A DNA stretch of 64,000 nucleotides. It comes from Chloroflexota bacterium. Its GTDB lineage: Bacteria > Chloroflexota > Limnocylindria > P2-11E. A program made the translations under genes and the position numbers. The stretch is from assembly GCA_027310565.1 (NCBI GenBank), contig DAIDAP010000026.1, positions 1 through 64,000 of the forward strand, written 5' to 3'. The notes beneath the pieces are model-generated. The model was given only the letters and a program-made list of their open reading frames with translations, did not search any database and had not been told where the DNA came from. Below are positions 2,072 through 6,371 of the stretch, in pieces (within the stretch, counting starts at the first letter, position 1; every line of letters starts with the position of its first letter).

Positions 2072-2572
2072 TCAGCGGCCCGCGGCCCGTCTCCGCGCCT
2101 GGCGCTCGTGCGTCGGCTCCTCCTCGAGCTCCTCCCACTGCCGCGAGCTGTAGAGGTTCGCGGCGAGCCCGGCGTCGATGACGAGGAGGAGCAAGCCCGC
2201 CGCCGCGAGCAGGAACGGCGCGGGCGACGGCGCCGCGTCGGCGAGCTCGAAGCTGCGCAGCGCGCCGGAGGCCCCGTAGAGGACGAGCGCGCCGACCGCG
2301 GCGAGGATGTCGATCCGCGCGAGCCCGCGCTCCTCGGTCTCCGCGTCGATCCATTCGACGACCGCGGCGATCGCGGCGACGCCGGTGAGAACGATGTTCG
2401 CGACGACGAGCCACTGCGCGACGACGACGTAGCCGTTCGTCTCCTGCGCGCCCCACCCGAACCACGACATGAGGTCCACGAGCGTGACGGCGAAGCCGAT
2501 GCCGGCGGCGGCGAAGGCGACGTGCGACCGGGGCGCGAAGCCCAGCCGGCGCCCCTGGACGAATTCCTTCAA
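2072..2572 (-). CDS. Four-TM membrane protein, DUF2231-like
   Basis: A 166-aa integral membrane protein with four hydrophobic segments at about residues 17-36, 48-70, 87-105 and 119-140. The hydrophilic C-terminus is rich in Glu and Arg. The pattern resembles DUF2231 predicted membrane proteins, but this is a weak match made from memory. The start is TTG at 2572; nine nt upstream lies TAGCAT (2582-2587, minus strand), which supports TTG as a leaderless start. It lies between the ABC exporter and a cysteine-tailed microprotein on the same strand. No catalytic residues are apparent. Confidence 0.7.
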   Translation of the reverse strand: MKEFVQGRRLGFAPRSHVAFAAAGIGFAVTLVDLMSWFGWGAQETNGYVVVAQWLVVANIVLTGVAAIAAVVEWIDAETEERGLARIDILAAVGALVLYGASGALRSFELADAAPSPAPFLLAAAGLLLLVIDAGLAANLYSSRQWEELEEEPTHERQARRRAAGR

Positions 2573-2625: not shown

Positions 2626-2784
2626 TCAGCAGCCGGGCTCGCCGTCGTGGCCGCAGCACGTCCGGCGGCGTGCGACGCGCAGCCACAGGTTGCGGGACGC
2701 GACGAGGACGCGCCGCGGCAGCGGGATGTCGGATCCGGTGAAGTTGCGGATCGCGCGGACCGGGTCGGGGCGGCGCGTCGTCAC
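2626..2784 (-). CDS. CCGxxGxPGC-tailed microprotein
   Basis: A 52-aa basic protein ending in TCCGHDGEPGC. The N-terminal half is Arg-rich and ends in RRVLVASRNLWLRVARRR, an amphipathic, membrane- or nucleic-acid-binding type stretch. The three cysteines and one histidine within the last ten residues could bind a metal or form a redox centre. Very short proteins with a C-terminal CCGxxGxPGC recur, from memory, in Chloroflexota and related high-GC genomes and lack a known function. The start is GTG at 2784 or the in-frame ATG at 2802, 58 aa in that case. It is on the same strand as the S9 peptidase upstream (stop at 2824). Confidence 0.65.
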   Translation of the reverse strand: MTTRRPDPVRAIRNFTGSDIPLPRRVLVASRNLWLRVARRRTCCGHDGEPGC

Positions 2785-2823: not shown

Positions 2824-4830
2824 TCAGGCGTGCGCGTCGAACCAGTCGGCGATGCGCCGGCAGTGCTCGACGCGGTTGCGCGGCTTCCCGCCGCGCGTGA
2901 GGTCGTGGTTGTCCTCCTGGAAGCGGACGAACACCGTCTCGACGCCGTGCAGGCGCAGCGCGACGAAGAGCTGCTCGGCCTGCTCGATCGGGCAGCGCAG
3001 GTCGCGCTCGGCGTGCAGGATGAGGAGCGGCGTCTTCACCTTCGGCGCGTACGTGAGCGGCGAGCGCTCGACGAGCCTGGCGGGGTCCTTCCACGGCGAC
3101 GCGTCGCCCATCTCGTGTTCCCAGAAGTGCCAGCCGATGTCGCTCGTGCCGAACGCGGAGACGTTGTTGCTGATGCTGCGCTGGGTCGCGGCGGCGCGGA
3201 AGCGGTCGGTGTGCCCGACGATCCAGTTCGTCATGAACCCGCCGTAGCTGCCCCCGGTGACGTACAGGCGCCGCGCGTCCACCCACGGCCACGCGAGCGC
3301 GTGGTCGACGCCGAGCATGAGGTCCGCGTAGTCCTTCCCGCCCCAGTCGCCGACGCACGCGGCCGAGAACGCTTCGCCGTAGGCCTGGCTCCCGCGCGGG
3401 TTCGTGTACAGCACGGCGTAGCCGCGACCCGCGAGGACGTGGAACTCGTGGAAGAAGCCGTGCCCGTACGCGCCGTGCGGGCCGCCGTGCACCTCGAGCA
3501 CGAGCGGCCACGTCCGCGAGGGGTCGAAGCCCCGCGGCTTCATGAGCCAGCCCTCGATCGGCCAGCCGTCGGCGCCGATGAGCTCGAGCCGCTCCGGCGC
3601 CGCGAGGTAGCGCCCGCGCAGCAGCTCGCCGTTGAGATCGGTGAGCGTTCGCATCGAACGCCCGAGCTCGCCGGCGGCGACGTTGCCGGGGTCCGTCGCA
3701 TCCGAGAGGACGCACGCGAAGCGGGCCGCATCGCTCGACAGCGAGAGCGAGACGACCTGGTGCGCGCCGACCGTCTCGCTCCGCACCTCGCCGCCGGCGG
3801 CCGGCACGCTGTACACGTTCGCCGTGCCGCGGTCGCTCCCGACGAAGACGACGCGCGAGCGGTCGGCGGTCCACACCGGCGCCAGCATCTGCACGTGCGA
3901 GCGCATGTCGCTCATGACCGCGGACCCGACGGTGCGGTCCCAGGACGCGGTGAGGTCGCGGCCCACGCCGCCGCCCGCCGGGAACGTGAAGACGTGAACG
4001 TTCTTCGCGGAGGAGCCGATCGCCTCTTCGACGCCGTAGCAGCCGATGCCCGTCCCGTCCGGCGACCACGACGGGTTGCCGTACGAGCCGCGCTCGTCGG
4101 TGATCCGGCGCACCGCGCCGTCGGCGACCGCGGCCACCCAGACGTCGGCGACGGTGTTGCGCTCGCGCGCCCCGGTGCGGTTGGAGACGAACGCGATGTC
4201 GCGTCCGTCGGGCGACCACGACGGCTGCGCGTCGTCCCAGTCCCCGTCGGTGAGCCGCCGCGCCTCGCCGCCGCCGTCCGCGTCGGCGATCCACACGTGG
4301 CGGCGGCGCCCGTCGAGCAGGAAGCCCTCGTCGGTCTTGTAGCGCACGCGGTCGTACACCTTCGGCGCGTCGTCGGCCGCCTCGGCGGCCTTCGGCTCCT
4401 TCACGGTGAACGCGAGGTGGCGGCCGTCGGGCGCCCAGGCCAGGTCGCCGCAGTCCTCCGCGAACGACGTGAGCCGCCGCGAATCGCCGCCGTCGAGCGA
4501 CAGCACGAAGACGTCGCGGGGCTTGCGCTTCGCATCGGTCGCCGCGGCGCGGTCGGAGACGAACGCGATGCGCCGCCCGTCGGGCGACCACCGCGGCAGT
4601 GCGTCCTGCCCGGGTCCGAAGGTGAGCTGACGCCCCGGCGCCGATCCGTCCGCGGGCACGAGCCACACCGCCGAGCGGTAGGCGTTCTTCTCGCGATCGA
4701 TCACCCGCACGACGTACGCGACACGTGTGCCGTCCGGTGAGATCTGCGCGTCAGCGAGGAACCGGAAGTCGTAGAGGTCCTCCGGGGTCATCGGCGGCGG
4801 AAGCTCTGCCAAGGGGTCGTATCGTGCCAC
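2824..4830 (-). CDS. S9 family peptidase (acylaminoacyl-peptidase/prolyl oligopeptidase type)
   Basis: A serine peptidase of about 668 aa. The first ~400 residues form a TolB/PD40-type beta-propeller with repeated SPDG/SWSPDG motifs. The C-terminus is the alpha/beta hydrolase domain with nucleophile Ser528 in GGSYGG, Asp610 in AERD and His642 in DNHD. No signal peptide is seen, so it is probably cytoplasmic and degrades short or N-acylated peptides. The longest frame starts at GTG 4830, only two bases from the divergent gene at 4833. The ATG at 4791 (MTPEDLYDF) is an equally good start and would leave room for promoters. Confidence 0.9.
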   Translation of the reverse strand: MARYDPLAELPPPMTPEDLYDFRFLADAQISPDGTRVAYVVRVIDREKNAYRSAVWLVPADGSAPGRQLTFGPGQDALPRWSPDGRRIAFVSDRAAATDAKRKPRDVFVLSLDGGDSRRLTSFAEDCGDLAWAPDGRHLAFTVKEPKAAEAADDAPKVYDRVRYKTDEGFLLDGRRRHVWIADADGGGEARRLTDGDWDDAQPSWSPDGRDIAFVSNRTGARERNTVADVWVAAVADGAVRRITDERGSYGNPSWSPDGTGIGCYGVEEAIGSSAKNVHVFTFPAGGGVGRDLTASWDRTVGSAVMSDMRSHVQMLAPVWTADRSRVVFVGSDRGTANVYSVPAAGGEVRSETVGAHQVVSLSLSSDAARFACVLSDATDPGNVAAGELGRSMRTLTDLNGELLRGRYLAAPERLELIGADGWPIEGWLMKPRGFDPSRTWPLVLEVHGGPHGAYGHGFFHEFHVLAGRGYAVLYTNPRGSQAYGEAFSAACVGDWGGKDYADLMLGVDHALAWPWVDARRLYVTGGSYGGFMTNWIVGHTDRFRAAATQRSISNNVSAFGTSDIGWHFWEHEMGDASPWKDPARLVERSPLTYAPKVKTPLLILHAERDLRCPIEQAEQLFVALRLHGVETVFVRFQEDNHDLTRGGKPRNRVEHCRRIADWFDAHA

Positions 4831-4832
4831 AC

Positions 4833-6371
4833 ATGGTCAGGCTCGATCCGCGGACCCGCACCGGCGTCCTCGTCGGCGCGCTCGCGATGTTCCTCGCGCT
4901 GGACGTCGCGTTCCTCGTCTCGCTCGTCGGGATGCCGTTCGCGCCGTTCGCCCTCGGCCAGGCGATCATCGACGTGCTCCCCGGATGGATCTCCATCCCG
5001 CTCATCGAGCGGCTCCAGTTCTGGGCGAAGGGGCTCCTCGTCGTCGGCGTGCTCGCGCTGTTCCTCCTCGGCGGGGCGGCGGCCGGAGCGCTCGCGGTGT
5101 CGCCGCGGCGCCGGAGCGGCCCGGTGCTCGCGCTCGTCGCGCTGCCGTGGACCGGCGCGCTCGTCCTCGGCCAGCTCTTCGCCTCGGCGAAGATCGACCT
5201 CGCGACGAGCGTCATCGACGGCGGCGTCGGTCTCGTCGTGAACGCGCTGGCCCTCGCCTACCTCGCGCCGGCGTCGCTCACGCGGGAGACGGTGCCCATG
5301 CCCGACCGCCGGCGCGGGCTGGGGCTGCTCGCGGCGCTCGCGGGTCTCGCGGCGATCGGAGCGCTGCCGCTCTCGCGCGTCTTCGCCGGCGCGGGGTCGC
5401 GGCTCGGAGGCGTCCCGATGCGGGCGCGCAACCTCGTGCAGCGTGCCGCCCTCGCCTCGCCCGACCCGGCGCTCGAGCCGATCGCCGGGCTCACGCCGCG
5501 GATCACCGCGAACGCGGACCACTACGTCATCGATACGGCGCTCGTGAAGCCGCGCGTCGACGTCGCGACGTGGCGGCTCGACGTCACCGGCGCCGTCGAC
5601 CGTCCGTTCTCGCTCACGTACGACGAGCTGCTCGACCTCGACGCGGTGGAGCAGGCGCACACGCTCGAGTGCATCAGCAATCGCACCGGCGGCGACCTCA
5701 TCGGGACCGCGGTGTGGACGGGCGTGCGGATGAGGGACCTCCTCGCGCGCGCCGGCGTGAGGGACCGCGCGTACGACCTCGCGCTCACGTCCGTGGACGG
5801 CTACACGGATTCGTTCCCGATCGCGAAGGCGATGGAGCCGGAGACGCTCGTCGTCTACCTCATGAACGGCGTGACGCTGCCGCAGGAGCACGGCTATCCG
5901 GCCCGCGTCCTCGTCCCGAACATCTACGGGATGAAGAACGTGAAGTGGCTGCGCGAGATCCGCGTCGAGACGTTCGACCTCAAGGGGTACTGGCAGCAGC
6001 AGGGCTGGTCGGACGGCGCGATCGTGAACACCGGGACGCGCATCGACGTGCCCGGCGGCACGCTGCGCTGGAGCGGCGACGCGGCGACCGTCGCGGGCAT
6101 CGCGTTCGCTGGGGCGCGCGGCATCGCCAAGGTGGAGCTCTCGTTCGACGGCGGCGGCACCTGGCGGCAGGCGACGCTCGAGCCGCCGGCCGGGCCGCTC
6201 ACCTGGCGCCGCTGGTCGCTGCGCTGGACGCCGGACGGCGCGGGCCCGCGCACGGTGCTCGCGCGCGCGACGGACGGCAACGGCGACACCGAGACGCCCG
6301 TGGCGCGCGATCCCTATCCGGACGGCGCGACGGGGTACGACGAGATCCGGCTGAACGTCATCCGGGTGTAG
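4833..6371 (+). CDS. Membrane-anchored sulfite-oxidase-fold molybdopterin oxidoreductase
   Basis: A 512-aa protein. Residues about 1-165 carry four or five membrane segments, including one just before the catalytic part. From about residue 200 a sulfite oxidase/YedY-like molybdopterin domain follows, with the putative Mo ligand Cys280 in LECISNRTGG. The C-terminal ~110 residues resemble the Mo-co oxidoreductase dimerisation (Ig-like) domain. The catalytic part probably lies outside the membrane, and its substrate is unknown. The chosen ATG at 4833 is 7 nt after TATCGT (4820-4825), a leaderless-type promoter. The in-frame extension upstream overlaps the divergent peptidase and is rejected. Confidence 0.88.
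   Translation: MVRLDPRTRTGVLVGALAMFLALDVAFLVSLVGMPFAPFALGQAIIDVLPGWISIPLIERLQFWAKGLLVVGVLALFLLGGAAAGALAVSPRRRSGPVLALVALPWTGALVLGQLFASAKIDLATSVIDGGVGLVVNALALAYLAPASLTRETVPMPDRRRGLGLLAALAGLAAIGALPLSRVFAGAGSRLGGVPMRARNLVQRAALASPDPALEPIAGLTPRITANADHYVIDTALVKPRVDVATWRLDVTGAVDRPFSLTYDELLDLDAVEQAHTLECISNRTGGDLIGTAVWTGVRMRDLLARAGVRDRAYDLALTSVDGYTDSFPIAKAMEPETLVVYLMNGVTLPQEHGYPARVLVPNIYGMKNVKWLREIRVETFDLKGYWQQQGWSDGAIVNTGTRIDVPGGTLRWSGDAATVAGIAFAGARGIAKVELSFDGGGTWRQATLEPPAGPLTWRRWSLRWTPDGAGPRTVLARATDGNGDTETPVARDPYPDGATGYDEIRLNVIRV

Follow-up and report, generated by a model that had tools for sequence, protein, structure and literature searches.

The question raised by this locus is whether a very short reading frame ends at its first stop codon or is translated through it. 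The stretch of DNA analysed, hereafter called the window, comprises 64,000 nucleotides from a Chloroflexota bacterium (assembly GCA_027310565.1, contig DAIDAP010000026.1), and the frame lies on its minus strand at 2626–2784, where 52 codons run from GTG to TGC and are followed by an in-frame TGA (translation VTTRRPDPVRAIRNFTGSDIPLPRRVLVASRNLWLRVARRRTCCGHDGEPGC). A sequence-only reading had presented this frame as an overlooked cysteine-rich microprotein of 52 amino acids (aa). The frame exists on the minus strand as described, but its end was wrongly placed: we consider that the TGA at 2626–2628 is very probably decoded as selenocysteine (Sec), the uncommon 21st amino acid. This would give a selenoprotein of 63 aa encoded at 2593–2784, with Sec as residue 53, a product of the form VTTRRPDPVRAIRNFTGSDIPLPRRVLVASRNLWLRVARRRTCCGHDGEPGC-U-LPEPAEGPPS and a terminal TGA stop at 2593–2595. 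These limits were obtained by translation with TGA read as Sec and by comparison with homologues and their post-TGA frames. The earlier reading missed the recoding of the TGA and the hairpin of the selenocysteine insertion sequence (SECIS) type downstream of it.

Conservation of the frame and identity of the TGA

The other four genomes of the window genus each have a homologue of the gene and, with the window genome counted, homologues occur in 23 of the 28 genomes of its family, covering all eight genera. When 84,980 species genomes were scanned with a profile, the core motif turned up in 377 stretches, and 233 relatives were confirmed by tblastn. The best 80 of these 233 relatives came from Chloroflexota, Actinomycetota (Thermoleophilia, Coriobacteriia and Acidimicrobiia), Desulfobacterota, Nitrospirota and one Acidobacteria metagenome-assembled genome (MAG), and the candidate selenoprotein family is accordingly spread, as judged from these matches, over at least five bacterial phyla. 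The suggestion that such tails are found repeatedly in tiny proteins of environmental bacteria was borne out for Chloroflexota and Actinomycetota by this motif and profile scan, and the claim that a conserved cysteine-rich microprotein had been overlooked proved right as well. Of 301 sampled genomes of the window phylum, 40 had a match, which was convincing in 39 cases; in the Desulfobacca phylum, about 10% of the genomes had a match. The matches at L178 and in genome G049 were dropped as chance matches. Pairwise comparison of the 52-aa part gave a pooled ratio of nonsynonymous to synonymous changes (pN/pS) of 0.36, and changes were over-represented at third positions; both indicate that this part is under purifying selection. 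The absence of such selection had been named as a ground for discarding the microprotein.

The codon that follows the motif ...CCGHxGEPGC was TGA in 129 of 134 distinct homologues and a cysteine codon in the other five, and it was never TAA or TAG. An earlier set of 124 distinct sequences had contained 119 TGA and five cysteine forms, again with no TAA or TAG, before further loci brought the number to 134. In the same loci, which range from 36 to 74% GC, TGA accounted for 43% of the stops of long frames. A cysteine codon in place of TGA is a classic sign of a selenocysteine codon. Because the TGA is invariant except for replacement by cysteine, and is never exchanged for TAA or TAG, we read it as Sec, and on these comparisons the product is almost certainly a selenoprotein. 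One decayed copy (L168, genome G478) has an extra in-frame TGA ahead of the motif; a second Sec at this codon was considered and rejected, and as the motif also has a Gly-to-Arg change, the copy was taken as undergoing decay.

The machinery for Sec insertion is present in the window genome. SelA (506 bits) adjoins SelB (319 bits), a tRNA-Sec has the anticodon UCA, and SelD has a single in-frame TGA at its UxxK position. Downstream of this TGA, as in the window gene, lies a hairpin whose apical loop contains GGUC, although in SelD, a known enzyme family, the loop lies about 33 nucleotides (nt) after the TGA, compared with 18 nt in the window gene. In the phylum sample, SelB was above the cut-off in 37 of 39 carriers and in 196 of 262 non-carriers (Fisher p = 0.0035, uncorrected for relatedness), and one of the two carriers without SelB (G134) has a cysteine form. 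Three of the five cysteine-form genomes (G134, G536 and G537) lack SelB, and one genome of the window family (G008) has neither the gene nor SelB. Among the TGA-form genomes reached via loci, SelB was present in 42 of 48. In all these counts of SelB, many or most of the genomes are incomplete MAGs.

The downstream hairpin and the limits of the coding region

A hairpin lies about 16–23 nt downstream of the TGA across the family; its apical loop, typically GGUC, mostly starts 17–23 nt after the TGA. In the window it occupies 2597–2614 on the minus strand (stem GGCGGAG/CUCCGUC, apical loop GGUC at 2604–2607) and begins about 11 nt after the TGA; it was scored with a spacing of 18 nt, a 5-bp stem and −13.1 kcal/mol. 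Constraints for the bacterial SECIS (bSECIS) were taken from a published catalogue (PMC13188914). They were satisfied by 105 of 129 TGA forms, compared with 146 of 512 control TGAs (28%), 61 of 258 shuffled sequences (24%) and none of the five cysteine forms. In 32 distinct GGUC-type sequences, 97.5% of the stem cells were paired, compared with 49.5% after shuffling, a percentage that comes partly from selection because only sequences with this loop and four or more pairs had been admitted to the set. Furthermore, compensatory changes were found in all five stem pairs, and controls in which the partner strand was slid gave 37–51% pairing in the same sequences. As support for the predicted hairpin, the diversity of these compensatory pairs carries more weight than the pairing percentage. 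A search of Rfam with the region of the gene gave nothing above threshold. An RNA element in the nucleotides that encode the tail of the 52-aa part was also considered, and was rejected because conservation there comes mostly from the invariant protein and the high GC content; the true RNA element is, on this comparative evidence, the putative one 3′ of the TGA.

The frame after the TGA is short, with a median of 13 codons to the next stop, and the members usually have 1–30 residues past Sec. In the window, the predicted post-Sec tail LPEPAEGPPS and the terminal stop occupy 2593–2625 on the minus strand, a region delimited by translation and by homologous post-TGA frames. In two clades, the changes after the TGA by codon position were 63/61/158 and 0/3/19, that is, with an excess at third positions. 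The histidine content was 6.8% in post-TGA tails, compared with 1.4% in shifted frames, and several tails end in runs such as HNHPHTHKHKHE. From these patterns, the frames beyond the TGA resemble coding sequence in several lineages.

At the other end of the gene, GTG at 2784 is likely to be the start codon, because sequence conservation extends back to this codon but does not reach the in-frame ATG at 2802. A −10-like box, GATAGT (2791–2796), lies 6 nt upstream of this GTG, and the same box, spacing and GTG are present in every listed locus of genera g1 and g5. This arrangement suggests a putative leaderless promoter, and hence leaderless transcription, in the window lineage. Other lineages have an ATG start, often with a Shine-Dalgarno-like sequence. 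At L024/L105, L040, L046, L070 and L081, no ATG, GTG or TTG occurs at the expected distance of 44–66 codons upstream of the TGA.

Relation to known selenoproteins and proposed role

Searches of Pfam, NCBIfam and solved structures with the truncated protein gave no match, and neither did Pfam and NCBIfam 20.0 with the full-length protein in which Sec was read as Cys. None of the 119 selenoprotein families of a 2026 catalogue (PMC13188914), which were compared by short motifs only, fits the protein, and no relevant paper on the motif was found among open-access papers. The selenoprotein family is therefore apparently undescribed. In architecture, there is a likeness to KCU-star, or DUF466 (YbdD-type; NF033934/PF04328), whose members are also tiny (about 70 aa), carry an adjacent Cys-Sec pair at the C-terminus, have Cys-Cys in homologues and are missed by ordinary searches (PMC4607533). 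The new family differs in having the CCGHxGEPG motif ahead of the pair and in that Sec is usually not the very last residue. Moreover, there was no match to PF04328 or NF033934 among 79 members or with the full-length protein with Cys for Sec, and hhalign against a hand-entered sequence of Escherichia coli YbdD gave a probability of 0.3%.

An adjacent Cys-Sec pair also occurs in SaoC, MbdU and HgcA, the selenoproteins with a CU motif in the 2026 catalogue, where SaoC is listed among the selenoproteins tied to heavy-metal handling (PMC13188914). Unlike these, the present gene stands alone without conserved neighbours and matches no NCBIfam model; the models of the CC/Se motif, SaoC, MbdU, TsoX and TsoC families gave no match, and only unrelated sub-threshold models appeared, at E-values up to 10. 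In the C-terminal arm of animal thioredoxin reductase, the tetrapeptide is Gly-Cys-Sec-Gly. The near-C-terminal Cys-Sec pair of that arm forms a selenenylsulfide redox centre (PMC4607533), but the present protein has no flavoenzyme domain, and the resemblance, which is limited to a short motif, is at most a functional likeness.

The AlphaFold model of the protein consists of two helices (residues 8–17 and 22–39) and an unstructured arm, with a mean pLDDT (the per-residue confidence score) of 71, and a fold search with this two-helix model gave no significant structural match. The second predicted helix (LPRRVLVASRNLWLRVAR; 2668–2721) is basic and amphipathic according to the model and its hydrophobic moment, and the whole protein is basic, with an isoelectric point of about 10.3. 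In alignments of 79 sequences, an Asn in helix 2 and the residues C-C-G-x-x-G-x-P-G-C ahead of Sec were invariant; the later set of 134 sequences includes a few members in which a single Gly of the motif is not kept. In the window, this motif is CCGHDGEPGC (2629–2658), immediately ahead of Sec. The sequence-only reading had attached weight to three Cys and one His at the extreme C-terminus. However, the protein would continue past GC with Sec and the tail, and the motif His did not prove to be a conserved feature, since relatives have His, Asn, Arg or Asp at this position. Many members have His-rich N-termini or post-Sec tails, and others have a Cys at position 2.

From these features, only an inferred function can be offered, namely that of a basic carrier of two helices whose Cys-Cys...Cys-Sec arm would serve in redox chemistry or as a soft-metal site. 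SelB and tRNA-Sec very probably decode the TGA after CCGHDGEPGC, steered by the SECIS hairpin, and the two short basic helices would hold the protein on the surface of a partner or a membrane. The flexible arm would then display the Cys-Cys pair and the adjacent Cys-Sec pair, the latter most likely cycling between selenol/thiol and selenenylsulfide or binding soft metal ions. Thiols of the Cys-Cys pair could act as resolving groups or co-ligands, and in members with His-rich ends these could supply further ligands. Adjacent Cys-Sec pairs are known in DUF466 and animal thioredoxin reductase, and in the latter the pair is a redox centre (PMC4607533); they also occur in predicted metal-linked selenoproteins, and for SaoB, SaoC and UXX-star proteins it has been suggested that Sec coordinates a metal (PMC13188914). 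A function of Sec along these general lines, in redox chemistry or in metal binding, is probable. The metal or redox role proposed from the sequence remains plausible and is strengthened by Sec and by the His-rich ends of many members, but no observation favours haem binding or lipidation, which had been proposed with it.

Alternative explanations and gene neighbourhood

Several observations weigh against a recoded TGA. Strict bSECIS constraints are failed by 24 of the 129 TGA forms, and the post-TGA stretch of the window, taken by itself, has no folding advantage over its dinucleotide shuffles (z 0.26). In genus g5, the stretch after the TGA has no excess of third-position changes (74/50/37), and the tail there seems to be held mainly as RNA, that is, as a hairpin. 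SelB is not above the cut-off in six of the 48 TGA-form genomes or in the TGA-form carrier G145 of the phylum sample, and two of the five cysteine-form genomes do carry it. One rival explanation is an ordinary 52-aa cysteine-rich microprotein that stops at the TGA and is followed by a transcription terminator or a chance hairpin. It would account for the purifying selection on the 52-aa part by itself and for the unremarkable folding in the window. We nevertheless consider it very unlikely, given a stop that is never TAA or TAG over such a range of GC contents and that gives way to Cys five times, cysteine forms without the hairpin, and two clades with coding-like frames beyond the TGA. A generic terminator was rejected in particular, as there is no U-tract and the G-rich loop and its spacing are nearly fixed.

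Neighbouring genes, which the sequence-only reading had proposed to inspect, bear on two further explanations; compared across the family, none is conserved. In mycobacteria, leaderless polycysteine ORFs (open reading frames) regulate the downstream gene by attenuation, and a cysteine-rich leader peptide of this kind would fit the leaderless-type start of the window lineage and the Cys codons close to the end. It would also fit a gene for a 166-aa protein (2072–2572, minus strand), which in many loci of the window family lies downstream on the same strand at a nearly constant distance of about 50 nt; this protein has no Pfam or NCBIfam match. However, the microprotein is conserved between phyla and its neighbours are not, the gene is single copy, the next gene is often on the opposite strand, and the conserved regulated downstream operon of the mycobacterial systems was not found. 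As to the start, the −10-like box at 6 nt from GTG is a feature of the window lineage, and many other members have a Shine-Dalgarno-like sequence and ATG. Such a leader is still more improbable than a plain microprotein. Least probable of all is a precursor peptide that is ribosomally synthesised and then modified: the protein is short and has an invariant cysteine-rich core near its C-terminus, but no neighbourhood contains a conserved maturation enzyme, and the region of the first helix is also conserved. Within the selenoprotein reading itself, redox chemistry as the main role is a tentative choice that falls short of an even chance. The binding of soft or transition metals, as a sink or chaperone and without redox catalysis, is on balance unlikely as the main role. 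A metal site is favoured because many members have His-rich ends and Cys at position 2; on the other hand, the window protein has no His-rich end, and there are no conserved metal-resistance or transport neighbours.

A conserved operon was likewise rejected, as only local pairings were found. In one Desulfobacterota clade (L078, L104, L160, L164 and L168), the downstream gene on the same strand resembles DUF523-DUF1722 by eye, and a relative of this gene occurs nearby on the opposite strand in a Nitrospiraceae MAG (L057). Elsewhere in the window, 4725–6371 on the plus strand encodes a molybdopterin oxidoreductase with sulfite oxidase-type domains and an N-terminal hydrophobic, membrane-like stretch. 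The microprotein gene is nearly always present in a single copy. The tandem pair in one genome (L202 and L221, G253) has diverged motifs, CCGNYGDPGC-TGA and CCGDYGAPGC-TGA, and each copy is followed by its own GC-rich hairpin. A search of viral contigs and plasmids gave no relatives of the gene, and an origin from either was rejected on this basis.

Selenoproteins are systematically misannotated because the Sec codon resembles a stop. The present family is concealed in two ways, since its proteins are tiny and the TGA lies near the end of the gene. At somewhat below even likelihood, we propose that it is an unrecognised family that combines a small helical fold of its own with a CCGHxGEPGC-Sec arm, and in which the selenol, the thiols and, in many members, the His-rich tail would form a single soft-metal or redox site in Chloroflexota, Actinomycetota, Desulfobacterota, Nitrospirota and Acidobacteriota. 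Selenium would then be used in a protein that belongs neither to the thioredoxin fold nor to the large selenoenzymes, and the family would add a broad and testable selenium use in soil, groundwater and organohalide-respiring bacteria. Short frames that always end in the same TGA are thus worth checking for recoding.
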